Origin: a virus
DNA: 56,732 bases
Virus record (IMG/VR): IMGVR_UViG_3300010373_000055
Span: 1-56,732 of that record
Strand: one strand, 5' to 3'
In this document: in pieces, positions 30,337-47,439 of the stretch
How positions within the stretch are numbered: position 1 is the stretch's first letter
Layout: the number at the start of each line of letters is the position of its first letter
The notes under the pieces: generated by a model
Seen by the model: the letters and a program-made list of their open reading frames with translations, nothing else
Databases searched by the model: none
Told to the model about the DNA's origin: nothing
Translations under genes and position numbers: made by a program

Positions 30337-30341
30337 TTATC

Positions 30342-30956: not shown

Positions 30957-30969
30957 GGAGATTTGAGAG

Positions 30970-32417: not shown

Positions 32418-32450
32418 GCTCCTAGTTGGTAAACTAACGAAGGAGTGGGC

Positions 32451-32792: not shown

Positions 32793-32802
32793 GAGCACGC
32801 CG

Positions 32803-32838
32803 AATAGACCCTCTGCATTTTTATGTGGAGGGTCTATT
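32803..32838 (+). terminator. 11-bp stem-loop, terminator-like
   Basis: AATAGACCCTC (32803-32813) pairs perfectly with GAGGGTCTATT (32828-32838) across a 14-base T-rich loop. It lies 10 bases after the stop of the DNA-binding gene and before the ribosome-binding site AAGGAAAG of the next gene. There is no poly-T tract after it, so it may instead be a processing site or leader hairpin. Confidence 0.5.
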
Positions 32839-32859
32839 CACAAGGAAAGAGAGTATACT

Positions 32860-33039
32860 ATGGCTGAGTACAGGCATGTGTTAGCAAATCGGTTGGAGCA
32901 TGGGCAAGAGATGCGGTATGCAGGCATGAATCGAACTGTGTTGGCTGTTGCGCATCGCAGAAATACTGTCGAGGTAACATTGGACACTGGTGCGAAGGTG
33001 TTATTGCATCCTGACGAGGTAGTGTGGGTCGTTATATGA
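32860..33039 (+). CDS. hypothetical protein, 59 aa
   Basis: A small beta-rich protein (LAVAHRRNTVEVTLDTGAKV) with the texture of an SH3-like or Tudor-like barrel. I chose ATG 32860, preceded by AAGGAAAG; the in-frame sequence upstream covers the stem-loop and is unlikely to be coding. It overlaps the next gene as ATGA. Not recognised. Confidence 0.5.
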   Translation: MAEYRHVLANRLEHGQEMRYAGMNRTVLAVAHRRNTVEVTLDTGAKVLLHPDEVVWVVI

Positions 33040-33230
33040 GACGTGCAAGGCTATATGTTGTACCAAATGATAGCAAAGATATGTGGCAGGTTTGGTACGA
33101 TGATGGCTTTGGGAATGTACGACCGATCAGTTCTCCCTTTACGGATGAGCTACAAGCTAGACGGTTGATCCGTGTCATACAAGACAATCTTAGCAAGGCA
33201 TATTTAGAAGTGCCCCCTCCTGGGGCATAA
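33036..33230 (+). CDS. hypothetical protein, 64 aa
   Basis: A small protein (ARLYVVPNDSKDMWQVWYDD) with alternating strands and a helix, not recognised. ATG 33036 overlaps the previous TGA; a GTG twelve bases upstream is less likely. Its last codons form a six-bp hairpin (TGCCCC/GGGGCA, 33211-33227) that could serve as a weak terminator. Confidence 0.5.
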   Translation: MRRARLYVVPNDSKDMWQVWYDDGFGNVRPISSPFTDELQARRLIRVIQDNLSKAYLEVPPPGA

Positions 33231-33255
33231 ATTATTCAATCAAAAGGGGGTATCA

Positions 33256-33444
33256 ATGAAAATTGGAGATTTTGTCCATGACATTTTGGATAGAGAGCTT
33301 GTCGATGAAGGGCTTGAGCCTTGGCTAGGAGAGATACTTGATATAGATGTGGGATATGAGTATCCAATCTTAGTTCGGTGGCATACAGGGGCACAAGAGC
33401 GGTGTACGGGCGCACAGCTAAAAGTAATCGAGTTGCCTGGCTAG
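33256..33444 (+). CDS. hypothetical protein, 62 aa
   Basis: An acidic protein with a start like a small beta-barrel (MKIGDFVHDILDRELVDEGL, then YPILVRWHTGAQ). The texture resembles phage proteins with a single SH3-like barrel, but no family can be named. AAGGGGG lies before the ATG. The promoter of the next gene overlaps its last codons. Confidence 0.5.
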   Translation: MKIGDFVHDILDRELVDEGLEPWLGEILDIDVGYEYPILVRWHTGAQERCTGAQLKVIELPG

Positions 33445-33471
33445 ACAAGCATAGTGAGTTTGTGCTATAGT
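33442..33471 (+). promoter_or_regulatory. sigma-70-like promoter, probable leaderless start
   Basis: TAGACA (33442-33447), an 18-base spacer, then TGC-TATAGT (the -10 at 33466-33471). The -10 ends six bases before ATG 33478, so a start at the usual distance puts the first base of the RNA at or next to the ATG. No Shine-Dalgarno lies between. A leaderless message is the natural reading; the -35 differs from TTGACA at one base. Confidence 0.6.
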
Positions 33472-33477
33472 TGAGCC

Positions 33478-34365
33478 ATGGCGCGACTTAGCCAGCCAAT
33501 CGAGGTTCGAGGAGGGGTGATTCTTCCGCTCTACGGAGAGCGCAGGGGATACCTAGCCAGCCGGATAGGTGAGGCTGCACAGTCGTTTCACTTGACGAAA
33601 GAGGGCGCAGAAGCGTACTTGCTGAAAACAGACCCGGCTACGCGCATGTCTTACAAAGACTACCAGCGCCTGCCTGTTAGACTCAAACGTCGTATCTACA
33701 AAAGAACTAGAACCAAGAAAGCGGAGGCACACAGAATGGCCCGAGTAATTGTCAAAAAACGTGCAGCGCAGGCAGAGGCCCCAGCCGAGAAACGTGGGCG
33801 CGGTCGTCCACCGAAAGCTGCCAAAGCAGCGAAAGCGAAAGTAGCAGCGAAAAAAGCTCCAGCTAGCGAGCGCGTGAAATACGTCGATGACGAGAAACTG
33901 CGCGCGAAGGTCGCCGCCTTTGTCGAGAAAGGCATGGGGCTGAACGAGATAGATGAGGCGTTAGACCTCACCAGCGGCACGTCCTACCGTATCAACATCG
34001 CCAATGTTGTCGAGGACACGCCAAAACTAAAGATCAAATTCAGCGATGAGGAGGAGCTTGTCGAGGCAGTCGCAGAGGCCCGCGAGGAAGCGGGCGACTA
34101 TTCTTCGTGGTACTGGCTGGCGGGACGTACAGGCGTCAGCGTTCCAACGCTCAAGAAGATTATGCAGGAAGCGGGCACAGACACCAGCGCCAAAGTTGCC
34201 GAAGCTCGCGCCGCTGCCAAGGCAGAGGAGGATGATGACGAGGAGCCTGCGCCCAAAGCCAAAAAAGCGAACAAACGAGGAGTGAAAGTAACCAGCAAAG
34301 CCAAAAAAGTAGTCGGAGCGCGGCGCGGTCGTCAACCGAAAGCTGCCACCGGGGACCCTTCCTAA
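33478..34365 (+). CDS. AT-hook and HTH DNA-binding protein
   Basis: A 295-residue basic protein. An AT-hook (RGRGRPPK, about residues 106-113) sits in an Ala/Lys-rich linker between an N-terminal domain (residues 1-80) and a second domain (about 135-245) paralogous to the product at 32451, including SSWYWLAGRTGVSVPTLKKI, which reads as helix-turn-helix. The C-terminus has a second hook-like ARRGRQPKA. I infer a nucleoid-associated or regulatory protein. The promoter places the transcript start at or near the ATG. Confidence 0.6.
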   Translation: MARLSQPIEVRGGVILPLYGERRGYLASRIGEAAQSFHLTKEGAEAYLLKTDPATRMSYKDYQRLPVRLKRRIYKRTRTKKAEAHRMARVIVKKRAAQAEAPAEKRGRGRPPKAAKAAKAKVAAKKAPASERVKYVDDEKLRAKVAAFVEKGMGLNEIDEALDLTSGTSYRINIANVVEDTPKLKIKFSDEEELVEAVAEAREEAGDYSSWYWLAGRTGVSVPTLKKIMQEAGTDTSAKVAEARAAAKAEEDDDEEPAPKAKKANKRGVKVTSKAKKVVGARRGRQPKAATGDPS

Positions 34366-34370
34366 CAGGG

Positions 34371-34676
34371 TTGTCCCATGAGGAGGTTTCTGAGAGGCTA
34401 AACGGGAGGCGCATCTACACGATGCACAAGGAACCCGGAAGCAGCGTCATCTTTGAGCAGGAATATAAGGTGGGGCGCTTCCGGCGTTTCTTGGAGCCTA
34501 CAGAACCGGACGATCCTGAGCGAGGCTCCAATCCAGCCAAACGTACACAGAGGCTCTTGCAGTTCTACGAGCCGGACGAACGCGCATCGACAGGCCGCGT
34601 GTATTCAGGCGTGATGCACACTGTCGCAGTTGCGGATATAGCAGACGTGAGTAAAAAGCCGTTTACAAATATATAG
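34371..34676 (+). CDS. hypothetical protein, about 101 aa
   Basis: A charged protein containing GRRIYTMHKEPGSSVIFEQE and a Pro/Glu-rich middle. The start is uncertain: TTG 34371 gives the full frame; ATG 34422 is the first ATG, with GGGAGG 12 bases upstream. No family is recognised. Confidence 0.45.
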   Translation: MSHEEVSERLNGRRIYTMHKEPGSSVIFEQEYKVGRFRRFLEPTEPDDPERGSNPAKRTQRLLQFYEPDERASTGRVYSGVMHTVAVADIADVSKKPFTNI

Positions 34677-34685
34677 GGAGCCGAC

Positions 34686-34865
34686 ATGACACAATATCGC
34701 GCAGCAGAACTCAAAGTTGGTTCTATGGTTATGCTGCCAAAATACTTCATTGCGCAGGAAGTCGAGAGCATTCTTGAGCATAGTGCGCAAGGACACATCA
34801 TCTTCCAGTTCAGGCATAACAAGTATCTTTTCCACAGTGACGATTGTGTATTGGCGGAGCTATGA
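34686..34865 (+). CDS. hypothetical protein, 59 aa
   Basis: A small protein (YRAAELKVGSMVMLPKYFIA; HIIFQFRHNKYLFHSDD) with a beta-barrel-like pattern similar in texture to the small proteins at 32860 and 33256. AGGGAG lies just upstream of ATG 34686. It overlaps the next gene as ATGA. Function unknown. Confidence 0.5.
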   Translation: MTQYRAAELKVGSMVMLPKYFIAQEVESILEHSAQGHIIFQFRHNKYLFHSDDCVLAEL

Positions 34866-35038
34866 AATACAGAGGGATTCATTTCAAACTGTGCTCGCCG
34901 TTGATTGGCGTGCATCTCGGGCGCAATCCTGTAAGCGGGGAGCGCTTCTTGCACATTGCTCCGTTCCCGTTCATCTCAATCGAGTTCTCCGAGCGCGATA
35001 CAGAACCACAGCGCGATATACCAATTGGATATTTTTAA
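34862..35038 (+). CDS. hypothetical protein, 58 aa
   Basis: The sequence (IHFKLCSPLIGVHLGRNPVS; FLHIAPFPFISIEFSER) is strand-rich and ends with a short charged tail. ATG 34862 overlaps the preceding TGA. Not recognised. Confidence 0.5.
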   Translation: MKYRGIHFKLCSPLIGVHLGRNPVSGERFLHIAPFPFISIEFSERDTEPQRDIPIGYF

Positions 35039-35089
35039 GGTAAGCCATATTATGATGCAATGCCAAAGATGGTCGTAGGAAGGTCTACT

Positions 35090-35176
35090 ATGAGCGTAGG
35101 TGTGGGCGAGGATGTTATAGTCCGCCTTGAACCTATGCGGAATCCAAATGAGATGATCGAGGGATACAATGGTTGA
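35090..35176 (+). CDS. micropeptide, 28 aa
   Basis: A 28-residue frame (MSVGVGEDVIVRLEPMRNPN and eight more) preceded by AGGAAGG and ending 8 bases inside the next gene. The ribosome-binding site and overlap are the only support; it could be a leader peptide that couples translation to the gene at 35169. Confidence 0.35.
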   Translation: MSVGVGEDVIVRLEPMRNPNEMIEGYNG

Positions 35177-36095
35177 CGAGACAATCCCACAGGAGGAAAC
35201 TAAGCATCAGAAAATAATGTCGCGCGTGCGCGCGCTACTAGCGAAGGCGGACAGTACGACGGAACCGGGAGAGGCGGAACGCTTCCGTGAAGGCGCAGAC
35301 AAATTGATGACTCTGTATGCCATCGAACAGTGGCAGCTAGACGCACACAAAGATGAACCCCGCGCTGTCAAACCTATTCGGCGCGACTTCGATATGAAAT
35401 GGTATATGGGTAATCCGTTGCGCAATGACTTGTGGGCGATGATGAGTAACGTTGCCGCCCACTGCCGGGTCAAGCTCGTTTACTGGAAGTTCAGGGGTTT
35501 CATTCCGGCCGTGGGAATTACCAGCGACTTGGATTATTTCGACATGCTTTTCACAACGCTAATGCTAGAGCTAGGCAAGGGCCTAGAGCCGAAGCCTAAA
35601 CCAGATGTGAGCTTAGTAGAGAACCTAGTTGTGTTGCGCGAGGCCGGGATGACTTGGAATCGGGCGGCAGACCTGCTAGAGAAGATCGACCAGTGCGATA
35701 CGTTCGATACCAAAACTGGCATGGAATGGACGAAGCTCTACACGGCTTATTGCCGCGAGCACAACCGCGCGCGCGTGCGTACAACGCCTAGCGTCTACCA
35801 GGCAAGCTACGCCAAGGGTTTTGTCACCGAGATTCGCAAACGTCTACGGCGGCAGGAGGAGAAGTCAACAGGTAGCATGGAGTTAGTGCTGCGCGACATC
35901 CGCGAGGTAGTAGAGGACGAGGCAGCGAAGCTCTTTGGTGCCGATCCCGAACGGTACGCAATGGAGAAGAGCGGCTATGTAGACCCTGCCGCCTATCACG
36001 CAGGATCAGTTGACGGTAAAAAGGCTCGCATCGCAATGAATCCTAACGAGACGATGGAACACACTGCACGCGCGCCGAAGGAGATAGAGTCATGA
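35169..36095 (+). CDS. DUF2786-like protein
   Basis: The first 50 residues (KIMSRVRALLAKADSTTEPG, then EAERFREGADKLMTLYAIEQ) match the DUF2786 signature seen in many phages and some plasmids. The C-terminal two thirds are alpha/beta and carry a long charged helix. The biochemical role of the family is not known to me. It sits in the early-type region before the second copy of the operator element and overlaps the following gene as ATGA. Confidence 0.65.
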   Translation: MVDETIPQEETKHQKIMSRVRALLAKADSTTEPGEAERFREGADKLMTLYAIEQWQLDAHKDEPRAVKPIRRDFDMKWYMGNPLRNDLWAMMSNVAAHCRVKLVYWKFRGFIPAVGITSDLDYFDMLFTTLMLELGKGLEPKPKPDVSLVENLVVLREAGMTWNRAADLLEKIDQCDTFDTKTGMEWTKLYTAYCREHNRARVRTTPSVYQASYAKGFVTEIRKRLRRQEEKSTGSMELVLRDIREVVEDEAAKLFGADPERYAMEKSGYVDPAAYHAGSVDGKKARIAMNPNETMEHTARAPKEIES

Positions 36096-36244
36096 AAATC
36101 TTCACGGCACTAAAGAAATTGATCGCTACAGAACTTTGGATCTTAGCGTTTCATATAAGCAAACAGACCATAATTGATTTATCCTTTGAATTAGTAAAGG
36201 CATATGAGCACGGCTTCAAACAGGGCAGGATGGGTGACTCATGA
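36092..36244 (+). CDS. hypothetical protein, 50 aa
   Basis: A short amphipathic helical protein (MKIFTALKKLIATELWILAF) with a charged end (AYEHGFKQGRMGDS). The hydrophobic stretch is too short for a clear membrane helix. ATGA overlaps on both sides support it as a gene. Not recognised. Confidence 0.45.
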   Translation: MKIFTALKKLIATELWILAFHISKQTIIDLSFELVKAYEHGFKQGRMGDS

Positions 36245-36453
36245 GCCGAACGGCGATGACAAGCACTCTACCCTGTTGGATTACGCAGAAGGGGGAAGGT
36301 GGTACACTGCGCATCACCTGTCCCCGCTGTGGTGGTAAGGCAATCGTCAATGCGCACAAGTGGTACAAAGGGGGTGGGCAGTACAAGGGACCGATGATAG
36401 GCCGGTCTTGTACTTATTGTTTCTTCACAAATCGAATCCCGGAGTCAAAATAG
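36241..36453 (+). CDS. zinc-ribbon protein, 70 aa
   Basis: A small basic protein with CPRCGG at about residues 27-32 and CTYC at about 57-60, forming a four-cysteine zinc ribbon. Nucleic-acid binding is probable by analogy, without a known partner. Its TAG at 36451-36453 is the first codon of the duplicated 50-base element. Confidence 0.6.
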   Translation: MSRTAMTSTLPCWITQKGEGGTLRITCPRCGGKAIVNAHKWYKGGGQYKGPMIGRSCTYCFFTNRIPESK

Positions 36454-36516
36454 TTGCTCACGCAACCAAAAGATTTATCAAATCTTTAGGTTCTCTTTAG
36501 GTTGGTGAACTATAGT
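36451..36516 (+). promoter_or_regulatory. duplicated 50-base promoter/operator element, copy 2
   Basis: Bases 36451-36500 are identical to 32353-32402. The tandem TCTTTAGGTT units begin at 36483 and 36494, 11 bp apart, and TATAGT lies at 36511-36516, seven bases after the second unit. The spacing AAATCTTTA-N5-TCTTTAGGTT-N7-TATAGTTG is shared exactly with the module at 37537-37575. It drives the gene at 36547, whose own ribosome-binding site is AAAGGAG. Confidence 0.65.
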
Positions 36517-36546
36517 TGGACCTACAAATCAATCTAAAGGAGCATC

Positions 36547-36729
36547 ATGATAAGCGTAGCGACAGCAAGACAGGTTCGGGCAATCGCCGAACGTTGGTCC
36601 GAGGAGTACGATGTGCCAATGGGCGATGTTCATCAACTATTCAAGGAATTGCAGCGCGCCAAAGGCAATGCAAGTTTCACGCAGTCCGTTGTGTTGCTCA
36701 ACAAAGTTCTAGACCAGAAGGGGAACTAA
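36547..36729 (+). CDS. hypothetical protein, 60 aa
   Basis: A helical protein (ARQVRAIAERWSEEYDVPMG) preceded by AAAGGAG and by copy 2 of the operator element. No family is recognised. It probably is the first gene of a small operon reaching to 37557. Confidence 0.5.
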   Translation: MISVATARQVRAIAERWSEEYDVPMGDVHQLFKELQRAKGNASFTQSVVLLNKVLDQKGN

Positions 36730-36730
36730 A

Positions 36731-36946
36731 GTGCTCCGTCGAATTGGCATAGTAGTAGCAGCAACCCTCATCGTTCTCGCCATCGTGTTGGTGATCGAAA
36801 ATGTCGGAGGGCATAGCCCGGCCAACACCTATCTACAGCAGGCCCCAGCATTGCAGCACGAAGCAAACGAAAATGCACGGCAGGCAGTTGAAGCTGAGAA
36901 AGAAGCCATCGAAGTCGAGCGGGAAGCTACCAGAAAGATTCCATGA
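36731..36946 (+). CDS. membrane-anchored coiled-coil protein, 71 aa
   Basis: The N-terminus holds one transmembrane helix after two arginines (GIVVAATLIVLAIVLVIENV), and the C-terminus is a charged Glu/Ala-rich helix (ARQAVEAEKEAIEVEREATR). It would be anchored with the helix outside or inside depending on insertion. It starts at GTG 36731. Role unknown. Confidence 0.5.
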   Translation: MLRRIGIVVAATLIVLAIVLVIENVGGHSPANTYLQQAPALQHEANENARQAVEAEKEAIEVEREATRKIP

Positions 36947-37557
36947 TATCAATTACAAATATACATAAATTGGAGATTGAAGAACGGCCAACTGGAAAGC
37001 GATTCATAATTGTAGATGAACGAACCGACAAACACATTGGTTATGTAGAAGCGCACGAACCATTGCGCCGTCACTTCTATTGGCGCGATTGGGACCCGAA
37101 GCGCGACGAACCAGAGTATGGAACAGTCGAGGTTAGCATCGGCAAGATTCTTCCAGAGCCAGAACATTCAGCTGCCATTTCGATAGCGGTACAGATTGCA
37201 GTTTCGTTCGTTGCCGCGCTCAATTCGCAGAACGCCTTCGCGCTCAAGGAGCAGTTCCGCCAGCGCCAGATACACCAGATAGCGCAGGCAACACATAATC
37301 GGATGGTTGAGGAGCGGCGTAAAGAAATTGAGGATAAACTGAAGTGGTATCTAGGGCAGAAGTTCAAGATGAGGGTGGCAGGTCGCAAGTCTACCGTGTT
37401 CGGCACGATTGATAACGTCACGGCAGATCGTCTATACTCTACAAGCGAGCAGTACCGGGGCATGACTACGAACCTCAACGCCATCCAGGAGCTTTGGGTC
37501 ATGTATCCGGGCGAGAAGCGCTACACGAACATCATCAAATCTTTATCAGATCTTTAG
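36943..37557 (+). CDS. hypothetical protein, 204 aa
   Basis: An alpha/beta N-terminal half (RFIIVDERTDKHIGYVEAHE) and a long basic helix (KEQFRQRQIHQIAQATHNRM) before a C-terminal beta domain (FKMRVAGRKSTVFGTIDNVT) that looks like a small RNA-binding barrel. No family is recognised. The last codons overlap the operator module that drives the next gene, an unusual packing of coding and control sequence. Confidence 0.5.
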   Translation: MISITNIHKLEIEERPTGKRFIIVDERTDKHIGYVEAHEPLRRHFYWRDWDPKRDEPEYGTVEVSIGKILPEPEHSAAISIAVQIAVSFVAALNSQNAFALKEQFRQRQIHQIAQATHNRMVEERRKEIEDKLKWYLGQKFKMRVAGRKSTVFGTIDNVTADRLYSTSEQYRGMTTNLNAIQELWVMYPGEKRYTNIIKSLSDL

Positions 37558-37573
37558 GTTTGGACTCTATAGT
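37537..37573 (+). promoter_or_regulatory. promoter/operator module, third and diverged copy
   Basis: AAATCTTTA (37537-37545), five bases, TCTTTAGGTT (37551-37560), seven bases, TATAGT (37568-37573). The distances match copy 2 exactly, though the spacers differ. The upstream palindrome and hairpin of copies 1 and 2 are missing here, so the 11-bp tandem half-sites and the -10 are the conserved core. It lies inside the end of the upstream gene. An ATG starts six bases after the -10, but a better start is 37604. Confidence 0.6.
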
Positions 37574-37603
37574 TGAACTATGGCAACAAACGAAAGGAAC
37601 AAG

Positions 37604-37765
37604 ATGAGCTACGAAACGATGGTTGATAGGATGGTGCAGCAGCGCCTTGAGGCAGATAGTGCTTATATAAATGCTGCTACCATCGAGGAGCAAAGTGCAC
37701 GGGAACAGCAGATCGTTGAAGAGGTTGAAGATCAGATCAACTACGGATATGATGAGCGCGACTAA
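37604..37765 (+). CDS. hypothetical protein, 53 aa
   Basis: A small acidic helical protein (MSYETMVDRMVQQRLEADSA). I prefer ATG 37604 because GAAAGGA lies six bases before it. An in-frame ATG at 37580 sits six bases after the -10 and would give a leaderless form eight residues longer. Not recognised. Confidence 0.45.
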   Translation: MSYETMVDRMVQQRLEADSAYINAATIEEQSAREQQIVEEVEDQINYGYDERD

Positions 37766-37944
37766 TGAGCCTCTCCAAGAACATAGAGCGAGCTTCAGCA
37801 AACGTATTGTGTATGCTCGATGAGGTCAAGCATGATATCAAACATGGAAACTATCAAGGGGCGCGCGAAGCCGCAGAATTGCTTCAGATGGAATCGGCAG
37901 AGTTGATGGCGCTTGTCGCTGAACTGGAGCGGAGGCACCGATGA
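37765..37944 (+). CDS. hypothetical protein, 59 aa
   Basis: A helical protein (MSLSKNIERASANVLCMLDE) with a Glu/Leu-rich C-terminal helix. TAATG overlap with the previous gene and ATGA overlap with the helicase gene indicate a co-translated trio. Not recognised. Confidence 0.45.
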   Translation: MSLSKNIERASANVLCMLDEVKHDIKHGNYQGAREAAELLQMESAELMALVAELERRHR

Positions 37945-39815
37945 TCGCGTTCGTAGACCTCAACGAGAAAAAGGACCGAATCAAGGTTACGTTCCCTTAC
38001 GAGCCCTCAGCCGTCCACGCGATCAAAAGCGTGCAGGGAGCAAGGTTCAAAGATAAAGGAGGACCGCACTGGCTCTTGCCACTAGACATCTCTAGCGCAC
38101 GCGAACTTCGCGCAGCGTTCACAAGAGCAGGGCATGAGCTAACACTCTCTCCTGCCGCCAAGAAGTGGGGCCATGCAGCGGTCCGCAAGGAGGAAAACCT
38201 CACGCAGCTAGGCGCAGCCGATGACGCTGAGCTAGAGTTTTTGCCAAAACTATGCCCGAAGCTCGCTAAGTGGCTACGTCCTTACCAGCGTGCAGATGTC
38301 GCATTCCTTGCGCGAGCAGATGCTATCAACGCGAACCACCCCGGTCTAGGCAAGACTGCCGAGGCAATCGGTGCAGTGTTCGAGGCGCAGCTACACAACG
38401 CGCCTAAGCTAGTGGTAGCGCCAAAGAGTAGTCTAGAGACTGTGTGGCTTGAGGAACTAAAGCGCTGGCAGAAACAGCGCGTATTGGTAACGTCTGGAGA
38501 CGATACACATAAGCAGCGACAGGCAATTATCGAGGCAGCTTGGGAAGCTGTTGACGATGACGAACCTTTCTGGCTCGTTATCAACCACCACATGCTGCGT
38601 TATCAGCGTGACCGTACAGCTAACAAGGTTATGGAGCATGGACGCGAGGAGTACCCACTGATACCTGTGTTTGGAGAGCTTTACAACATCCCGTGGTCCT
38701 ATGTGATCGTAGACGAGTACCACAAGATGGGTCTAGCAAACAACAAATCCTTGATGGCTCGTTCGCTGCGCGATGTCCCGCGCGAGAAGCTACTGCTGAT
38801 GTCCGGTACTCCAATGGGCGGCAAGCCTATCAAGTTGTGGTCTGCGCTACATCATATAGAGCCTGCTAAGTTCACAAGCAAGTGGCGTTGGGCGGGCATG
38901 TGGTTGGAGATTACAGACCACGAAGCTGCCGGACAGGTGCATAAGACCATCGAAGGCATCCGCCCTGAGCGCGAAGAAGCCTTCTACAAGGAGCACGCGC
39001 CGCACCTGCTACGGCGGACTAAGGCTGAGGTGTTGCCGCAGTTGCCCGCCAAGCAGTACACCATTGTTACCTGCAAGATGACGAAGAAACAGCGCAAGCA
39101 GTATGATTCTGTAAGTGCCGATGCGGAAGTCAAGATTGCAGATGAGCACCTGTCGATAGTCGGCGTGCTTGCCGAATACACAAGGCTCAAGCAGTTCAGC
39201 AACAGCCACCACATAATCAAGCATATGGCGAAAGGTGAGCTAAAGCTATTGCCGACAGGCGAGGGCGGCAAGTTTCCACAGTTGTTGCGCATTCTAGAGG
39301 AGAATGGAATTACAGGAGAACAGGAAAATGCTGAAGGTGATGAAAAGGTTGTGGTGTTCTCACAGTTCTCCTCTATCGTGGATTGCATTTGTGACGTGCT
39401 TGAAAGGGAGGGCATTGAGGTCAGCAAGATCACAGGTAGCGTAAATCGCAAGGGAGAGCGTACACGTATCCAGCGCGAGTTTCAGGGTGAGGACGGACCC
39501 CGCGTAATTTGCATGACAACCGGAGCAGGCGGTGTGAGCGTGACACTTGATCGCGCATCCACCGTTGTCTTTTTCGATGAGACGTGGGACCCGGACGACC
39601 AGGAGCAGGGCGAGGACCGTGTTCACAGGGCTTCGCGGATGAACCAGGTGATGGTTTATTATCTACGGTCGGAGGATTCAATTGAGGAGAGAATTGCTGA
39701 AGTTACAGGAGGCAAGAAACTCACCAATAAGCAGATACTTGACGCGATCCGTCTAACTTTGAAGATCAAAAAGGCAGAGAAGGAACATCAGCAGGCGCTA
39801 GAAGAGGCAGTGTAA
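37941..39815 (+). CDS. SNF2-family helicase-like ATPase
   Basis: A 624-residue superfamily 2 protein. Residues 1-90 resemble a HARP-like module (FPYEPSAVHAIKSVQGARF; HWLLPLDISSA). Motifs follow: GLGKT (about residue 135), VDEYHKM (about 257, a DEYH box instead of DEAH), LLMSGTPMGG, then KVVVFSQFSS, MTTGAGGVSVTLDRA and EDRVHRASR, the SNF2 form of motif VI. Such phage ATPases move on DNA, and HARP-type relatives anneal strands or remodel forks. It precedes the replication genes. Confidence 0.75.
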   Translation: MIAFVDLNEKKDRIKVTFPYEPSAVHAIKSVQGARFKDKGGPHWLLPLDISSARELRAAFTRAGHELTLSPAAKKWGHAAVRKEENLTQLGAADDAELEFLPKLCPKLAKWLRPYQRADVAFLARADAINANHPGLGKTAEAIGAVFEAQLHNAPKLVVAPKSSLETVWLEELKRWQKQRVLVTSGDDTHKQRQAIIEAAWEAVDDDEPFWLVINHHMLRYQRDRTANKVMEHGREEYPLIPVFGELYNIPWSYVIVDEYHKMGLANNKSLMARSLRDVPREKLLLMSGTPMGGKPIKLWSALHHIEPAKFTSKWRWAGMWLEITDHEAAGQVHKTIEGIRPEREEAFYKEHAPHLLRRTKAEVLPQLPAKQYTIVTCKMTKKQRKQYDSVSADAEVKIADEHLSIVGVLAEYTRLKQFSNSHHIIKHMAKGELKLLPTGEGGKFPQLLRILEENGITGEQENAEGDEKVVVFSQFSSIVDCICDVLEREGIEVSKITGSVNRKGERTRIQREFQGEDGPRVICMTTGAGGVSVTLDRASTVVFFDETWDPDDQEQGEDRVHRASRMNQVMVYYLRSEDSIEERIAEVTGGKKLTNKQILDAIRLTLKIKKAEKEHQQALEEAV

Positions 39816-39823
39816 TCTAGGGG

Positions 39824-39852
39824 TTGCAATGCTCGCGGCGATCTGCTATACT
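39824..39852 (+). promoter_or_regulatory. sigma-70-like promoter
   Basis: TTGCAA (39824-39829), a 17-base spacer, then TGC-TATACT with the -10 at 39847-39852. Both boxes and the spacing are close to consensus, the best in the window. Transcription would start near 39859 and give a leader of about 100 bases before ATG 39959. Confidence 0.7.
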
Positions 39853-39858
39853 TCGAGA

Positions 39859-39958
39859 GGCAACTCAGAGCCTCAGCGCTCCCCGGTTGGCCTCTCATAA
39901 CAGATCGGGGAGCGCGAGAGGCAAAGAGTATATTATCAAAATAAAGAAGGGCTCTGAG
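39859..39958 (+). promoter_or_regulatory. structured leader RNA that can pair with the start region
   Basis: A 100-base leader with three complementary elements. P1: CTCAGAGCC (39864-39872) pairs over 9 bp with GGCTCTGAG (39950-39958), whose last base touches the ATG and whose first bases overlap the AAGAAGG ribosome-binding site. P2: GCGCTCCCCG (39876-39885) with CGGGGAGCGC (39906-39915). Alternative: GCCTCTC in the P2 loop (39890-39896) can pair with GAGAGGC right after P2 (39916-39922), which excludes or knots P2. The layout is that of a translational switch. No known riboswitch class is recognised. Confidence 0.55.
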
Positions 39959-40145
39959 ATGAATATCAATGATGCACTTGTAACGCTGCACCTAAAATTG
40001 GATATCCCAAAGGAGCGAGTCCGATATCTTGGACGAAGCTCTAGAGAAGGACCCTGCTGAGGCAATCCGCGAGGCAGTCGAGGCAGACACAGACAGCTTT
40101 ATGATCTACTGCCACGACGATCCCGAGATAGACGTAACAGTCTGA
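39959..40145 (+). CDS. small acidic protein behind the structured leader, frameshifted
   Basis: From ATG 39959 the frame gives MNINDALVTLHLKLDIPKER and stops at 40060. The next frame from 40029 encodes a coherent acidic end (LDEALEKDPAEAIREAVEAD, then SFMIYCHDDPEIDV). Skipping one base after the TAT codon at about 40025-40027 joins them to a 61-residue protein that ends in an overlap with the next ATG. I therefore treat it as one gene with a one-base insertion. A separate second gene from TTG 40029 is possible. Function unknown. Confidence 0.5.
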
Positions 40146-40348
40146 TGGACGTTATAGTCTGTCAGAAGGTTGAAGATGGACCGGCATTTGTCGAGTCGCA
40201 CAAAATTGAGTGCAAAGGTTGCGGCAAGGCGTGCTGGATAAGCAGGGCAACAAAGAAATCAGCAGGTCCCGATCCAAACATAATGTGTCCCAAATGTCTA
40301 GAGGAATGGCTGACGATTCAGTCGTGGGATAAACCGAGGACAATGTGA
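40145..40348 (+). CDS. zinc-ribbon protein, 67 aa
   Basis: A four-cysteine site, CKGCGKACW (about residues 23-31) and CPKC (about 48-51), in a small protein with a Val/Glu-rich start. It overlaps its neighbours by one base on each side. Probable nucleic-acid or protein-binding zinc ribbon, no family assigned. Confidence 0.6.
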   Translation: MDVIVCQKVEDGPAFVESHKIECKGCGKACWISRATKKSAGPDPNIMCPKCLEEWLTIQSWDKPRTM

Positions 40349-40479
40349 TGGAGAAATACCCGAAACTCGACGCATGGGGATTGGTAATGATGTGCTTTGC
40401 TATATTCATGCTTGTGATTTGCACACTCCTGTTAGTTGGAATGGCAATCATCAAGATAATTGATTTGATAGGAGGATAG
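40348..40479 (+). CDS. small membrane protein, 43 aa
   Basis: One long hydrophobic segment (GLVMMCFAIFMLVICTLLLV) flanked by charged ends predicts a single-pass membrane protein. TGATG overlap upstream; its stop is directly followed by the GTG of the next gene. Role unknown. Confidence 0.5.
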   Translation: MEKYPKLDAWGLVMMCFAIFMLVICTLLLVGMAIIKIIDLIGG

Positions 40480-41154
40480 GTGTTACTGCCGGATTTCCAG
40501 ATAGAGCGCGGAGTTGAGCGCCACAATCTAATCGAGCCGTTCGACAAAGATTGTCTCCAGCCAGCTAGCTACGACTGTAAGCTATCAAATGAGTTCATTT
40601 ATGTCAACCCTCCAGAAAAAGAAATCAAGGCGCATCCCGACGTTGAGGAAGTGGTTGACCCTCTAAACTTGCCGAACGCATCCGTAGCGTCCGAATGGAT
40701 GAAAGTAAAGACTGAATGGTTTGTGATAATGCCAGGGCAGTTTGTACTCGCCAGCACGCAGGAGTTCTTCAACTTCCCTTCGCACACTGCCGGACGTGTT
40801 GAGGGTAAGTCCTCGCTAGGGCGGTTGGGCCTGCTTGTGCACGTTACGGCGGGGTTCTTCGATCCCGGATTCAAAGGCACCGCAACGCTGGAGATTGTCA
40901 ATCTGTTAGGGCGACCGATCATCCTCAAAAAAGGCATGAAAATTTGCCAGATGTCCTTCCTCATGCTTGCTAGTGAAGTTAGCAAAATGTATGATGGACA
41001 ATATCAGGGAGACAAAGGCGCAGCAGTAAGTCGATACAAGAGCCTAGTTGGCCCTGTCGAGGAGGGTCAGGAGTTTGGCAAGCCTACAAGGAAAGAAGTC
41101 TTGGACAAACAGCTTATTCCACATGCGACAATAGATATATCTCGCATGGAGTAA
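40480..41154 (+). CDS. dcd: dCTP deaminase family protein (Dcd/dUTPase fold)
   Basis: A 224-residue enzyme. Signature motifs are LQPASYDCKL (about residues 26-35), GRVEGKSSLGRLGLLVH, and TAGFFDPGFKGTATLEI with the likely catalytic Glu. These are hallmarks of the trimeric Dcd/Dut fold, with the GKSS..R motif typical of deaminases, which turn dCTP into dUTP (or dUMP in bifunctional forms) toward thymidylate. That suits the ThyX gene downstream. The start is GTG 40480 with GGAGG upstream. Activity as deaminase versus dUTPase cannot be fixed from sequence. Confidence 0.75.
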   Translation: MLLPDFQIERGVERHNLIEPFDKDCLQPASYDCKLSNEFIYVNPPEKEIKAHPDVEEVVDPLNLPNASVASEWMKVKTEWFVIMPGQFVLASTQEFFNFPSHTAGRVEGKSSLGRLGLLVHVTAGFFDPGFKGTATLEIVNLLGRPIILKKGMKICQMSFLMLASEVSKMYDGQYQGDKGAAVSRYKSLVGPVEEGQEFGKPTRKEVLDKQLIPHATIDISRME

Positions 41155-41156
41155 CA

Positions 41157-41348
41157 ATGCTTGCCTGGTGGAACATAGAGGGTACTTACGAGTCTGCACT
41201 TGTGGCCGCTGAGGATGCGATAGAAGCCATGGAGCTAATTCGATTCCACAATAACTACGGAGGGACATGGAGGTTTGCAACACCAAAGCGTGTCAAATTG
41301 CCAGGGCCACCAACTGTGGCAGGAGTGTACCATTACTATGGTGAGTAA
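41157..41348 (+). CDS. hypothetical protein, 63 aa
   Basis: A small protein (NIEGTYESALVAAEDAIEAM) ending in an aromatic stretch (VAGVYHYYGE). It overlaps the start of the nuclease gene. No family is recognised. Confidence 0.5.
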   Translation: MLAWWNIEGTYESALVAAEDAIEAMELIRFHNNYGGTWRFATPKRVKLPGPPTVAGVYHYYGE

Positions 41349-42332
41349 CGATTTACCTCTATTGCGAACGTCGGAGCGCATGGCATACCAGAAGTGTCGG
41401 TGGGCTTGGTGGCATGAGTATGTCGAATGTCAGCAGCCGTCTACCGCTGCTCCTGCCCTGCGCTTCGGCCATCTAATCCACAAGACTCTAGAGGCGTACT
41501 ACATCAAAGGTTCTAAGCGAGCCAAGATTGATCTTGCTGATTACTTTTTGTTACTGTACGAAAAAGAGTTGAAGCAGGCAGAAAAGGGAGGCTTCCGCGA
41601 TGCCGATGGGCAGTGGAATAATGCCGCCGATCTAGGCGCGGTAATGATGGAGGGTTACGTCGAGAAGTACGGGGACGACGAACGCTGGCGCGTACTCGCC
41701 ACAGAGATGCCTTTCAAGGTTCCCGTTATGCACCCCAGGACAGGCAAGCCGTGGTTTACTACGTCGGCATAATCGACTTGGTTGTAAAGGACACACAGAC
41801 AGGGTTTATCTTTCTAGTGGACCACAAGACTACTAAAGATGATCCGACCAAACAGCCCTTCCTCACACTAGACGAGCAGGCAGGCGCATATTGGCGGTAC
41901 GGTCGGCAGTTCTTGTATGACAACGGTATACTCAAACCTACAGGGCATGGTCTCAACGGTATTCTCTTCAACTTTATGAAGAAGGCTGAACCAGACGTGC
42001 GCAAGAAAAACAAGGAGGGTTACAGTCTCAATCAGGATGGTAAAGTTAGTAAGCAGCAGCCGGGAGCGCTGTTCTTCAGGCATCCGGTATTTCGTAACGA
42101 TGCCGAAGGGCAGCGCGTAGGCGAAAGGGTGCTGAGCCAGTACAGCGAGATTCGCAAGGCACGTCGGCGGCAGATGGCAATTTACAAGAGTCCAAGCAAG
42201 ATGAACTGTGGTACATGCTCATACCGGGATATCTGCGAACTTCATGAGAGCGGAGCAGATTGGAAAAGTATGCGCAACGCAACAATGGGCGAATGGGAAC
42301 CTTACAGTGAGCACGAGTTGGAGGCTGCATGA
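41338..42332 (+). CDS. PD-(D/E)XK nuclease of the Cas4/RecB type, frameshifted
   Basis: From ATG 41338 the frame gives SERMAYQKCRWAWWHEYVEC and FGHLIHKTLEAYYI, the N-terminal region of Cas4/RecB-like exonucleases, then ends at 41772 after HPRTGKP. A shifted frame continues with VVYYVGIIDLVVKDTQTGFI and LVDHKTTKDD, the D...DHK core of the active site, and ends with CGTCSYRDIC, a cysteine cluster fit for an iron-sulfur site. One missing base near 41748-41751 explains the break. The intact protein would have about 331 residues and would act as exonuclease in recombination. Confidence 0.75.
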
Positions 42333-42523
42333 TGCACAAAAAGCGCGAGCAGTGTGGGCTAATGTATTTGGCACCTGCAATCGACCCATTCGAGCCACCG
42401 GAACAGGTGCATGTCCTACCGCTCTATGCTTTGATAATGGTTCCTGCTACATCGCTTCCAGATGGTAGTTATATGTTAGACCACATACATGCAGAAGTTG
42501 TCGGACAGATGGTGATGAACTGA
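42329..42523 (+). CDS. hypothetical protein, 64 aa
   Basis: A hydrophobic-centred small protein (MYLAPAIDPFEPPEQVHVLP; LYALIMVPATSLPDGSYM). The start ATG 42329 overlaps the nuclease stop, and the stop shares one base with the next frame. Not recognised. Confidence 0.45.
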   Translation: MMHKKREQCGLMYLAPAIDPFEPPEQVHVLPLYALIMVPATSLPDGSYMLDHIHAEVVGQMVMN

Positions 42524-42741
42524 TGAGGTGTGGAGGCAAGTTACCTCATATTGGGCGACCCCCGATAAGCGACCTCGTAGCTTGTCTCCACACGTCACCA
42601 GTCCTGCCAATTGGACGACGTATCCGCTTCGGCCTTCGCCTCAGCGCACTTGCATGGGGCGCGACGATCATGGGCCATAGGATAAGATGCACGACTGCGC
42701 CGTTTGCTCCTTTTCGTCTTACGGTCGCATCTCGGATATAA
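42523..42741 (+). CDS. doubtful small protein, 72 aa, over a strong RNA stem
   Basis: The frame starts in a TGATG overlap but its product is odd for this genome: rich in Pro, Arg, Cys and hydrophobic residues (GRRIRFGLRLSALAWG), and it covers the inverted repeat at 42528-42593. It may be a real small gene, a frameshifted one, or non-coding. No family is recognised. Confidence 0.25.
   Translation: MRCGGKLPHIGRPPISDLVACLHTSPVLPIGRRIRFGLRLSALAWGATIMGHRIRCTTAPFAPFRLTVASRI
42528..42593. other. 13-bp inverted repeat with 40-base loop
   Basis: GTGTGGAGGCAAG (42528-42540) faces CTTGTCTCCACAC (42581-42593). As RNA all 13 positions pair, one of them as G-U. The loop holds a GGG/CCC mini-hairpin. It does not fit tRNA geometry. 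It could be a small RNA, a leader element for the ATPase gene at 42759, or a binding site. Confidence 0.5.
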
Positions 42742-42758
42742 AACCGGAGGTAGTCAAA

Positions 42759-43535
42759 ATGTTACATCCAGGAATAACCGATCTACAGTCCACAGGAAAG
42801 TGCAACCTTTTCTTGTATGGAGACCCAGGGGTCGGTAAGACCAAAATGATTGGAGGGTGGGATAAAACTCTAATCATTCGACCTCCCACCGACCACACAG
42901 ATTCGATCCCGCGCACAAGCAAGGCAAAGGAGTGGGTTGTGGAGCGATGGGAGGAAATGGACGAAGTTGAGGAGTTCGCAAGGCACAACCCCGGAGCTTT
43001 CGATTGGTTCTGGCTCGATAGCATCTCGTTGATGCAGGATCACTTGCTGTACGACGTGATGGCGTTTGTCGAAGCCGCCAAGCCGCACCGTAAGGGCGGG
43101 CCGATAGATCAGGGTGAGTATCAGGCGAACTTTGTACGCATTACCAAATGGGTACAGCAGATGGTTGGGATGCCAGGATTCAATTTCGGAATGACTGCGC
43201 ATCCTGCCGAGTTACCCGACAATCTAGGTGTGAAACTAAAGCGCCCTTGGATACAGGGTAAAAACATGAGCTTCAAGATAAGTGGGTTCATGAACATTCT
43301 CGCTTATATGGAGGTAGTCGAATCGAAAGGAGAACAGCGCCGTGTGTTGCGTCTCGACAAGACGAAAGTCTACGATGCTAAGGATCAGTTTGGTATAGGT
43401 AAAGAAGGTCGGATGGTCGATCCTTCGATGAGCAAGATAATGGCAGCATTGCCAGAAAACAAGATAAGGCCAAAGCGGACATCCGTTCGTAAAATAAATA
43501 GCGCGCCCAAAAAGCGCGTCATCAAGCGGAGGTAA
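42759..43535 (+). CDS. RecA-like AAA ATPase (Sak4-type recombinase-like)
   Basis: A 258-residue ATPase with a Walker A GDPGVGKTKM (about residues 21-30) and a Walker B-like FDWFWLDSIS (about 83-92), followed by KWVQQMVGMPGFNFGMTAHP. Size and plan match phage Sak4-like single-strand annealing recombinases or their ATPase relatives. The C-terminal tail is basic. CGGAGG before ATG 42759 fixes the start; an upstream ATG at 42687 lies over doubtful sequence. The next gene, a DUF669-like protein, is a usual partner. Confidence 0.7.
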   Translation: MLHPGITDLQSTGKCNLFLYGDPGVGKTKMIGGWDKTLIIRPPTDHTDSIPRTSKAKEWVVERWEEMDEVEEFARHNPGAFDWFWLDSISLMQDHLLYDVMAFVEAAKPHRKGGPIDQGEYQANFVRITKWVQQMVGMPGFNFGMTAHPAELPDNLGVKLKRPWIQGKNMSFKISGFMNILAYMEVVESKGEQRRVLRLDKTKVYDAKDQFGIGKEGRMVDPSMSKIMAALPENKIRPKRTSVRKINSAPKKRVIKRR

Positions 43536-43537
43536 TT

Positions 43538-44359
43538 GTGAAGGTAAAGTATAATGTCAAAGGGGTAAAGGCTAGCTCAGGTAACTTTGAGCCGATCCCC
43601 AAGGGAGTCTATCCATTCACGGTAGAGTCCTGCGAGGTAACAAAGCCTAAAGGCATGGACCAGCGCATTGAGGCGGTCTATGTGATTGAGGACGGCGATC
43701 AGGAGGGGCGCAAGCTGTGGGACTACATAAACTTGGAGTCCGATGAGTCCGCCTGGAAGGTCCGCCAGTTTCTAGAAACATTTGGAATCGTCACTGAGGA
43801 TGAGGAGGTTGGTGAATTTGATCCAGCCGACATTGTTGGTGAAAAAGGCATGGTGCGCGTTGTGCACCAGCCAGGTCGGGCAGGCACGCAGTGGGAGGGC
43901 ACGATCCAGAGCAAGGTCGGCGGCACGTTCGCGCCGGACGGAGACGAGGAGAAGGCCGAGGAGGACCTAGACGAGGAGAAGGAGGCAGAGGAGCCAGAGG
44001 AGGACGCTGAGGACGGCGAGGAGGACGCGGGAGTTGACCTAGACGAGCTAGACCGCGCAGGTCTAAAGGCTCTCATCAAGGAAGAGGAGCTTGAGATCAA
44101 AGTCCTCAAAAAAATGTCAGATGATGACATCCGCGAGGCAATCACCGAGGCCATGTCTGACGATGAGGACGCAGAGGACGAGGATGAGGAGGACGAGGAG
44201 GAGGAGAGCGAGAAGCCCGATTATGACGAGATGAGCAAAGAGGAATTGGTCGCCACTTGCAAGGAGCGCGGACTCAAGACCACCGGCATTGTCAAAATCC
44301 TACGCGCTAGGCTCGTGACGGATGACGAATCAGGAGATAAATCAGGAGACCCTTTCTAG
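43538..44359 (+). CDS. DUF669-like ssDNA-binding-type protein with acidic region and SAP-like motif
   Basis: A 273-residue protein. Residues 1-130 look like the DUF669 family (GNFEPIPKGVYPFTVESCEV; WDYINLESDESAWKVRQFLE), often found beside Sak4 and thought to bind single-stranded DNA. The middle is an extreme run of Glu and Asp. The C-terminus has a SAP-like helix pair (MSKEELVATCKERGLKTTG, then KILRARL) and a second, less regular one before it. GTG 43538 follows GGAGGTAATT. Acidic tails recruit partners in bacterial SSB. Confidence 0.65.
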   Translation: MKVKYNVKGVKASSGNFEPIPKGVYPFTVESCEVTKPKGMDQRIEAVYVIEDGDQEGRKLWDYINLESDESAWKVRQFLETFGIVTEDEEVGEFDPADIVGEKGMVRVVHQPGRAGTQWEGTIQSKVGGTFAPDGDEEKAEEDLDEEKEAEEPEEDAEDGEEDAGVDLDELDRAGLKALIKEEELEIKVLKKMSDDDIREAITEAMSDDEDAEDEDEEDEEEESEKPDYDEMSKEELVATCKERGLKTTGIVKILRARLVTDDESGDKSGDPF

Positions 44360-44363
44360 ACCG

Positions 44364-44705
44364 ATGAACAACGGGGCATTTCATACGAATGACCTAGCGC
44401 TTGTTACTTACCTACACTGTCGGTCGTACAGTCATACCGAAATGCGCAGACCAGCACGCAATGTGGTTTGGTATTTTGAAAATACTAAGGCATTGCAGGA
44501 TGAGTTAGACGAGTACCGCCGAGGCGAGGCCCTGGTGGACCCGATTGAATTCATGAAGGCGCTAGCTAGTGTTCGTGGCGAGATGTTTGAGTACATAAAA
44601 ACCCTCGACGTTTACAGTTGGTATGCGTGCTGTTTCCAAAAAACATCTCGACTTACTCGCCCCATATCTTGTTGGAGAAAAACCTACGATCCGAGGAGAA
44701 GATGA
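44364..44705 (+). CDS. DUF5659-like protein, 113 aa
   Basis: The first 95 residues (HTNDLALVTYLHCRSYSHTE; VVWYFENTKALQDELDEYRR) match a small phage family with a conserved FENT-type strand and a helical end. Its last 28 residues overlap the primase start by 83 bases and look like noise, so the natural end may lie earlier and a lesion is possible. Function unknown. Confidence 0.45.
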   Translation: MNNGAFHTNDLALVTYLHCRSYSHTEMRRPARNVVWYFENTKALQDELDEYRRGEALVDPIEFMKALASVRGEMFEYIKTLDVYSWYACCFQKTSRLTRPISCWRKTYDPRRR

Positions 44706-47439
44706 ACACTGGGAGTGGGATATGTACTGCCCACTCCACGAAGATAATCAGCGGTCCAGTGGAATCAATCTCGACGCAGGTGTTTGGAACTGCCAGAAGG
44801 GATGCGGAGGCGGGAGGGTTATCGACCTTATCGAGCGACGGTCCGAGTGGGTCGATCCTCCCACCGCAGCATCGAATGGACATTCTGGCAGATCAAATAG
44901 CAAACCCCGATCTGCTGAGAAAATCTCTGATGGTGCTGTTGCGGGATGGATTAGTAGCCTATGGGCATCAGATGAGGCAGTCGATGGACTGATGATCGTG
45001 CGTGGGCTCGAAGAGAAAACAATCAAAGACTACGAACTAGGTTGGGACAAGGAACGAAAATGCTATGCGATACCGATACGAAACGCAGACGGAGAGCTAG
45101 TAAATATCCGCCGTTACACATTAAACCCAGGTCCCGGTACTAGGAAGATATGGAGTGTTGCAGGAAAGGGCAAGCCCGAACTCTATCCGATGAAAGTGCT
45201 TGCATCCGATCCACACAACATCATTATCTGCGAGGGTGAGTTAGATGCGCTCATCAGTATCCAGAATGGTTATCCGGCAATTACACGCACGGCTTCGGCA
45301 TCGACTTGGAAGCCAGAGTGGGGCTCTTATTTTCAGGACAGGGTTGTACTCCTCTGCCATGATATGGATTCTGCCGGACAGGACGCCAACCGCAAGGTGC
45401 GCCGAGCACTACAGCGCACCGCACGCGAGATACACACTATCACACTACCATATCCGCTTAGGCCAAAGCACGGCAAGGACCTAACTGACTTCTGGTTAGA
45501 GTATGATAAGCGCGATTTTTGGGAGTTACTAGCAGAAGCCTCCGACCTGTCTCACGCCGAAGAGGAGATAAAGAAAGTTGGCGAGGGACAGGCGGCAGTC
45601 ATTGATGCCTTCGATGCTTCAAATGTCGGCATCCCATTGGAGCTTACTGTAACGATCACAGGTAAGCGCGAGCCGGGTTACAACGTACCGCACAAAAACC
45701 TGCTCACTTGTACCCGCGACGCAGGCGAGAAGTGCGCCGTCTGTCCGCTCTATCCTAAGCACGGCGAGGACGTACTGATTGTACCGCCTAACGACCCTGT
45801 GATCTTGTCGCTAGTAGAGAGCACCGATAAGCAGGTGTTTGAGTTACTACGTGAACTATATGGTATACCCAAATGTAACAAATTGGTAATTGAGACAACT
45901 GACAAGCAGAGTGTTGAGGAGCTATTCGCACGACCGAGCATCGACCACAGCAATGGTAAAGGAGAGGACTACAAGAATATCAAGATAATCTCAGTCGGGC
46001 GGCATGACAGCAGCACCAACACAACCGTCCGTGTTGTCGGCTCTCTCTTCAATGATCCACGGCGGCAGCTAAACAGCTTCCAGGCTTGGGAAATCAATAA
46101 GCTACAGACAAGCGTTGATCACTTTGATGTAACACCGGAGATAGCTAATCAGCTAAAGATATTCCGGCCGAAAAAAGGAGAACGTCCACTAAAGAAGCTA
46201 GGAAGGATAAGCCGTGATATCGCAGCACACATTACGAAGATATATGGTCGCCCTGAGTTGCACGCTGCACTTGATCTTGTTTGGCATAGTGCTCTATCTT
46301 TCGACTTTGACGGTAGCCGTATTGGTCGTGGTTGGCTCGAATTGCTTGTCGTGGGTGATACTCGTACTGGTAAGTCTGAGGCGGCGGAGAAGATTAGCCG
46401 CCATTATCGAGCAGGCGAGATCATTTCCTGTGAGTCCGCGACATTTGCCGGTATTATTGGCGGAGCTAAGCAGTTTGGAGCAGGGCGAGAGTGGACTATC
46501 AAATGGGGAACAGTCCCGCTGAACGACCGCCGTCTAGTTGTGCTCGATGAGGTCTCGGGACTAACGCAGGAACAGATAGCAAAGATGAGCAGTGTACGAT
46601 CTAGTGGCACTGCTGAACTAACAATGATAGAGCAGGAGCGCACTTATGCTAGAACACGACTCGTTTGGCTTGGTAATCCTCGTGATACTAGGATGTCTGA
46701 TTATACCTACGGAGTACGCGCTATCAAGCCACTTATTGGTAATAGCGAGGATATTGCAAGGTTTGATTTTGCTATGTCTGTGCGCTCTGATGAAGTTGGG
46801 AGCGAGGAAATAAACCGGAGCCACGAAGAGAGTAAACTCACCTATGGCTCCGAGGCGTGCAGCATGTTGGTGCGATGGGTCTGGTCGCGTAAGCCCGAGC
46901 AGATACGGTGGGCGAGCGGTGCAGAGGCAGCAGTGTACGACTGCGCTAAAGAGTTCGGCGAGAGATATACAGATGACCCACCGCTGGTACAGTTTGCAAA
47001 TATCCGCGTGAAGATCGCACGGGTTGCGGTTGCGCTTGCCGCCCGGTTGTTTAGCACAGACTCGACATTTGAAAACATCGTTGTGCGCGTTGAGCATGTC
47101 GAAGATGCGATGGCGTTCGTTGATATGCTGTACCGGATGGATGGATTTGGTTACGCAGACCTAAGCAAAGAAGCGATCAAACTCGATTCAAAGGCGCGCG
47201 ACCACAGCAACCTAGATGAGATCAAAGGGTTCTTACAGTCGCGCACAGATGGGCTTGTCGGCTATCTACGGGGCGCTTCAAAGTTCAAGCGCATCGATCT
47301 AGAGGAGGTACTGAACTTAGACCGAGACGAGGCGAAGGGACTAATCAGCACATTGCATGAAAGCGGGATGATCCGAACTGAAGGTGGTTTCTATTACATC
47401 ACAGGGCCATTACATGAGATGCTCAGGGAAATAAAATGA
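44623..47439 (+). CDS. primase fused to MCM-like AAA+ helicase
   Basis: A 938-residue replication protein. A zinc site (CPLH near residues 36-39, then CQKGC near 57-61) opens the primase. TOPRIM follows: IIICEGELDA (Glu near 204) and VVLLCHDMDSAG (Asp near 246 and 248). Residues about 330-560 are of unknown type. The C-terminal ATPase has GDTRTGKSEAA (about 573-583), SCESATFAGIIGG, RRLVVLDEVSG (about 637-647), RSSG and TRLVWLGNPRD, a pattern closer to MCM than to DnaB. It would unwind DNA and lay down primers at the phage fork. Confidence 0.75.
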   Translation: MRAVSKKHLDLLAPYLVGEKPTIRGEDEHWEWDMYCPLHEDNQRSSGINLDAGVWNCQKGCGGGRVIDLIERRSEWVDPPTAASNGHSGRSNSKPRSAEKISDGAVAGWISSLWASDEAVDGLMIVRGLEEKTIKDYELGWDKERKCYAIPIRNADGELVNIRRYTLNPGPGTRKIWSVAGKGKPELYPMKVLASDPHNIIICEGELDALISIQNGYPAITRTASASTWKPEWGSYFQDRVVLLCHDMDSAGQDANRKVRRALQRTAREIHTITLPYPLRPKHGKDLTDFWLEYDKRDFWELLAEASDLSHAEEEIKKVGEGQAAVIDAFDASNVGIPLELTVTITGKREPGYNVPHKNLLTCTRDAGEKCAVCPLYPKHGEDVLIVPPNDPVILSLVESTDKQVFELLRELYGIPKCNKLVIETTDKQSVEELFARPSIDHSNGKGEDYKNIKIISVGRHDSSTNTTVRVVGSLFNDPRRQLNSFQAWEINKLQTSVDHFDVTPEIANQLKIFRPKKGERPLKKLGRISRDIAAHITKIYGRPELHAALDLVWHSALSFDFDGSRIGRGWLELLVVGDTRTGKSEAAEKISRHYRAGEIISCESATFAGIIGGAKQFGAGREWTIKWGTVPLNDRRLVVLDEVSGLTQEQIAKMSSVRSSGTAELTMIEQERTYARTRLVWLGNPRDTRMSDYTYGVRAIKPLIGNSEDIARFDFAMSVRSDEVGSEEINRSHEESKLTYGSEACSMLVRWVWSRKPEQIRWASGAEAAVYDCAKEFGERYTDDPPLVQFANIRVKIARVAVALAARLFSTDSTFENIVVRVEHVEDAMAFVDMLYRMDGFGYADLSKEAIKLDSKARDHSNLDEIKGFLQSRTDGLVGYLRGASKFKRIDLEEVLNLDRDEAKGLISTLHESGMIRTEGGFYYITGPLHEMLREIK

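Follow-up and report, generated by a model that had tools for sequence, protein, structure and literature searches.

A predicted 5′ leader RNA precedes the first gene of a phage replication operon, and by a modest lean it is judged to occlude the initiation region of this gene and to dampen or time its translation. The sequences, the fold, a counterpart in one relative and near-equal energies of two structures in the phage under study were computed. The leader probably belongs to a broadly known type of translation control element. If so, the replication operon of an uncultivated phage group is headed by a structured control leader, a kind studied experimentally above all in lambda, MS2 and T4. 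It would also mean that, where sequence is not conserved, leaders of this kind can still be located from the placement of a stem with respect to the start codon.

Locus, predicted promoter and model fold of the leader

The source is the IMG/VR virus record IMGVR_UViG_3300010373_000055, analysed over its whole length of 56,732 bases (the window). It belongs to a tailed phage without close named relative. The best identity of its SNF2-type helicase is about 35%, to helicases of Rhodococcus, Streptomyces and Gordonia phages, which hints at an actinobacterial host. The plus strand 3′ of the leader encodes small genes, a dCTP deaminase, a PD-(D/E)XK exonuclease, a Sak4-like annealing ATPase, an SSB-like protein and a primase-helicase. 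The contig has at least two places where one base apparently breaks a reading frame (near 40020 and in the exonuclease gene at ~41751-41772), so the exact sequence needs checking; these breaks suggest sequencing indels or real frameshifts. The exonuclease is encoded at 41275-42332 in two overlapping frames, split at ~41751-41772; its counterpart in the nearest relative is a single ORF of 382 aa. The features of the locus are as follows.

37941-39815, plus strand: SNF2-type helicase gene, 5′ of the promoter-like site and the leader
39824-39852, plus strand: promoter-like site TTGCAA-N17-TATACT with extended -10 TG; predicted transcription start near 39859
39859-39958, plus strand: predicted structured non-coding 5′ leader RNA, from fold energy and coding statistics that are negative in all three frames
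39864-39872, plus strand: 5′ arm of the closing stem, CTCAGAGCC, exact complement of the 3′ arm
39876-39915, plus strand: inner GC-rich hairpin with a 14-nt loop; 10 perfect pairs, 13 with G-U pairs
39916-39928, plus strand: alternative partner of the 5′ arm (state B, below); GAGGC 39918-39922 with GCCUC 39870-39874, GAGU 39925-39928 with ACUC 39863-39866
39945-39950, plus strand: AGAAGG resembling a Shine-Dalgarno sequence, placed where an A-rich tract ends; the final G belongs to the closing stem (direct reading)
39950-39958, plus strand: 3′ arm of the closing stem, GGCTCTGAG, abutting ATG 39959
39959-40145, plus strand: first gene, acidic protein of ~62 aa; frame broken by one base near 40020
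43538-44359, plus strand: SSB-like gene, 3.6 kb 3′ of the leader and not the first gene

A first-pass annotation of the sequence had placed a promoter here and called it the best of the window. The letters are present as described (TTGCAA at 39824-39829, TATACT at 39847-39852, spacer of 17, TG preceding the second hexamer), and the sequence makes a credible promoter. The superlative was not borne out, since the site scores 9/12 matches and three sites within 30000-49900 reach 10-11. An extended -10 promoter at 33442-33478 (TAGACA-N18-TATAGT, score 10/12) ends six bases before ATG 33478, so a nearly leaderless transcript is suggested there. Two repeats lie in or next to the promoter region. The -10 region together with GAGAGGC (39839-39861) agrees at 17 of 18 positions, allowing for a 5-nt bulge, with 39890-39907 (hairpin loop and 3′ flank) read as the reverse complement, and the 10-nt direct repeat CGAGAGGCAA lies at 39854 and 39915 with no other copy in the window. 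In read-through transcripts the promoter region could pair with 39890-39907, but this alternative is not competitive (-42.4 vs -48.8 kcal/mol).

Both stems of the first-pass annotation were recovered from the letters. The closing stem comprises 9 bp (39864-39872/39950-39958) and adjoins ATG 39959. With one mismatch allowed, its arms lengthen to 39861-39872/39950-39961, so that the UG of the AUG is able to pair. In the inner hairpin, GCGCTCCCCG at 39876-39885 pairs with 39906-39915, and G-U pairs extend the stem to 13 bp (39876-39888/39903-39915). In 37 °C models, which are indicative only, the predicted transcript 39859-39965 folds with -43 kcal/mol (z -4.7), and none of 200 dinucleotide shuffles was as stable. 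Its z ranks 14 among 4,531 genome windows on both strands; the fold is thus strong, not unique. The inner hairpin has a probability of 1.0 in every model fold, the closing stem one of 0.90-0.92 for transcripts from 39859 to 39961 through 39975.

Rfam covariance models gave no match at gathering thresholds in the window, in agreement with the earlier view that no known riboswitch class is recognised; the best weak matches (E 4.2 in the leader, 0.47 in the corresponding region of the nearest relative) are both implausible. No intrinsic terminator is listed at 39860-39960, the hairpin being followed by GAGAGGCAAAGAG and not by a U run. A nucleotide search of named phages with the leader returned chance matches only. 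The pattern CTCAGAGCC-N2-8-GCGCTCC was tried in viral contigs and abandoned; all 80 matches lacked a 3′ arm downstream and are thus due to chance.

The first gene begins as a 33-aa ORF (39959-40060) and continues in the +1 frame to 40145. Codon statistics of +0.30 before and +0.50 after the shift, against a median of 0.30 for real genes, show by this measure that ATG 39959 opens a real coding frame and that the leader is non-coding. The protein of ~62 aa, described at first pass as unknown, gave neither a family nor a homolog in searches.

Competing pairings of the 5′ arm

Two states are distinguished by the partner of the 5′ arm. It is paired with the 3′ arm at the start codon in state A and with the element just 3′ of the hairpin in state B. 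The first-pass annotation had named another exclusive alternative, in which the loop sequence GCCTCTC (39890-39896) pairs with GAGAGGC (39916-39922), and had listed it among the features of a translational switch. This pairing is not competitive (-33.3 vs -43.0 kcal/mol): replacing the hairpin by it costs about 10 kcal/mol, and it would seem unable to coexist with the 13-bp hairpin, as no connecting loop would be left. The structured leader with start-codon occlusion is upheld by the model folds and by the architecture in the nearest relative; the named pairing is not. Since 39870-39874:39918-39922 is nearly iso-energetic with the closing stem, the term "switch-like" survives in a different form.

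Constrained energies for 39859-39965 are -43.0 kcal/mol for state A and -42.6 kcal/mol for state B, and state B becomes slightly better when more coding sequence is included. In a series of RNA lengths, state B is complete (P 1.0) for transcripts ending as far as 39945, which still lack the ribosome-binding site. State A then prevails (0.92 for ends at 39961-39970), and adding coding RNA moves the balance once more. Transcripts reading through from the helicase gene favour state A less (0.25-0.42). In longer window transcripts, the initiation region also pairs with coding RNA, its unpaired probability being ~0.4 in both states; all of these models leave it ~60% paired. The leader was also considered as a possible RNA thermometer. 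Between 10 and 50 °C the probability of the closing stem changes from 0.97 to 0.87 in 39859-39975 and from 0.24 to 0.63 in 39859-39985, in neither case with a sharp transition. The predicted temperature shift is weak and runs in the opposite direction in the nearest relative.

Either a two-state equilibrium or a limited period open for translation would fit the length series and the energies. In the proposed scheme, a new transcription unit for the replication genes would start at a host-type promoter directly 3′ of the helicase gene, and its first 100 nucleotides would serve as a cis-acting RNA leader with the GC-rich hairpin always formed. Pairing of the 5′ arm over the stretch between the Shine-Dalgarno sequence and the start codon would create the closing stem and keep translation low; pairing with the element just 3′ of the hairpin would instead free the initiation region from the closing stem. 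During transcription, state B would be able to form first because its partner emerges first, and the closing stem would appear only after the ribosome-binding site has been transcribed. Given two pairings in this order, the leader would dampen or time translation of the first gene.

The nearest relative and wider comparisons

A search with the capsid protein identified IMG/VR 3300010376_000042 (L012/G001, hereafter G001), a 53.6-kb contig, as the nearest relative found. Its capsid protein is 83% and its helicase ~61-63% identical to those of the window. In G001 an intergenic region of ~450 bases, with no further gene, separates the helicase gene from the exonuclease gene. The end of this region (L195 3408-3531) contains GGCTCAGCAG, a GC-rich hairpin, an A-rich tract with AGGAG and CTGCTGAGCC abutting a GTG. 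The closing stem of 10 bp thus meets the GTG of the 382-aa exonuclease, and the inner hairpin with 13 perfect pairs has a longer stem than that of the window. The arms of the two phages differ yet stay complementary around a common core, CTCAG/CTGAG; G001 has an additional C in its 5′ arm and, opposite it, an additional G in its 3′ arm. Complementarity thus appears to have been kept through sequence change in these two genomes. State A is favoured by 5-6 kcal/mol in G001, so switching, or bistability, may not be conserved there.

Similarity between the two leaders is borderline (local p 0.11; p 0.0045 for the end-anchored 3′ part), and MAFFT misaligns the hairpin. Synteny makes common descent likely, whereas the sequences do not prove it. 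A promoter-like hexamer was seen by eye at a similar place in both G001 (TACACT) and a further genome, G005 (TATACT). The G005 record (L203 2435-2685) holds a palindrome-rich spacer after the helicase gene; at the end of this spacer stand the promoter-like TATACT and a short leader. The start of a new transcription unit at this junction may therefore predate the closing-stem leader.

A strict blind scan required an arm of ≥9 bp in contact with a start codon plus an inner hairpin of ≥10 bp. Applied to 14 genomes (756 kb), it returned the window and G001 at this locus and a handful of sites elsewhere. For 756 kb of Markov sequence, ~0.5 occurrences of the combination are expected; 746 kb of other viral contigs contained three. 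A 9-bp arm occurs at only 29 of 19,696 candidate starts of long ORFs, from which the chance of such an arm at the syntenic start is taken to be roughly 0.1-0.5%. Thirteen more distant relatives were fetched, 12 besides G001 at the helicase locus and one partial match. No closing stem was found in the helicase-exonuclease gap of those in which it was read (helicase ~33-43% identical over full length). Scans of genome contigs with helicase and capsid yielded no match. Scanning start codons by structure alone, each with the 180 nt upstream of it, was discarded; it gave too many matches to inform and missed ATG 39959 because upstream sequence competes.

Known systems and rival explanations

Among characterized systems, the lambda cIII leader and the MS2 maturation leader come closest to how the RNA would work, an assignment made with moderate confidence. 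The lambda cIII leader, as outlined in the secondary account, adopts two mutually exclusive mRNA conformations, one of which occludes the ribosome-binding site (Altuvia et al., 1989, via PMC4166951). The phage mRNA here is likewise predicted to have two competing structures of near-equal energy, one occluding the initiation region, whereas its sequence and gene are unrelated and its stem spans the whole leader with arms ~80 nt apart. The MS2 maturation leader is described as transiently open and later closed by a slow long-range fold (PMC6733600). It shares with the window leader an upstream arm that would pair over a long range with the initiation region and a competing structure able to form earlier. 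Unlike the window, MS2 is an RNA phage and its leader has a cloverleaf; kinetic folding in the window is deduced from the length series alone. Type I toxin mRNAs of the hok and aapA type also show long-distance occlusion of the ribosome-binding site (PMC6733600), resembling the interaction predicted to block initiation here. Their partner lies near the mRNA 3′ end, that of the window at the 5′ end. The downstream genes of the window and G001 (acidic small protein, exonuclease) are not toxin-like, and no antisense RNA is known.

T4 offers tailed-phage RNA structures at initiation regions, a stem at gene e and, for the replication gene 32, a 5′ pseudoknot plus an A+U-rich tract at the ribosome-binding site, both bound by gp32 (PMC3014915). 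The late promoter of T4 e is situated within the DNA that specifies the 5′ strand of its stem, whereas the window promoter is upstream of both arms and none is listed within 39864-39958. A pseudoknot of the gp32 type is not evident in the window leader; an A-rich tract is present. The gene 32 precedent (PMC3014915) also underlies the proposal of an autoregulation operator, in which an operon protein, e.g. the SSB-like or the Sak4-like one, binds the hairpin and the A-rich tract at the ribosome-binding site. The hairpin is indeed followed by ~28 nt of unpaired A-rich tract reaching the ribosome-binding site, and the operon carries an SSB-like gene. This gene is, however, 3.6 kb downstream and not first, and the pseudoknot is not evident; the operator, with its putative binding of operon proteins, is considered very improbable.

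A static structured leader would hold translation at a constant low level, shield the 5′ end from decay, or both, without any switching. The dominance of one state in G001, the inner hairpin formed in all folds and the absence of a known sensing motif agree with it. The near-equal energies in the window do not, and in both genomes the stem touches the start codon exactly, beyond what 5′-end protection needs; the static leader is accordingly rated as rather unlikely. Contact with the start codon would be incidental if the region were a DNA-level element (an operator pair or origin-related palindromes) or a processing site of the RNase III type. The direct repeat, the near-complement of the promoter region at 39890-39907, the long palindrome-rich intergenic region of G001 and further long intergenic hairpins in both phages speak for such an element. 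It is nevertheless thought improbable, as the arms meet the start codon without gap in both genomes, G-U pairs extend the window hairpin and CGAGAGGCAA is nowhere else in the window. Accidental complementarities in a GC-rich spacer are similarly improbable. Although 13 of the 4,531 windows fold with lower z, three strict matches exist in other viral contigs and more distant relatives are without the stem, architecture and locus coincide in the nearest relative. Translation control by occlusion is therefore preferred. A bolder version of it is regarded as a long shot: a bistable RNA that reads a signal (replication protein or small molecule) and gates the first gene of the replication/recombination operon, representing a new class of sensing leader in this phage lineage that was kept while sequence and target gene changed. 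Retrons were considered and dropped (no reverse transcriptase noticed among long ORFs), as were type I toxin-antitoxin systems (first protein acidic rather than hydrophobic) and CRISPR-repeat mimics (hairpin loop too long).

Further structured sites were noticed in the two phages. A very long hairpin at 42520-42600 of the window (z ~-6) starts from the stop codon of a small ORF upstream of the Sak4-like gene and is possibly a processing site of the RNase III type or another conserved structured element. G001 carries a hairpin of different sequence at the same place, after a homologous C-terminus (L195 4891-4968). The long non-coding stretch that follows the tail genes of the window, together with its surroundings (32351-33130 and 34401-34530), contains several segments that fold far below shuffles, with z down to -6.
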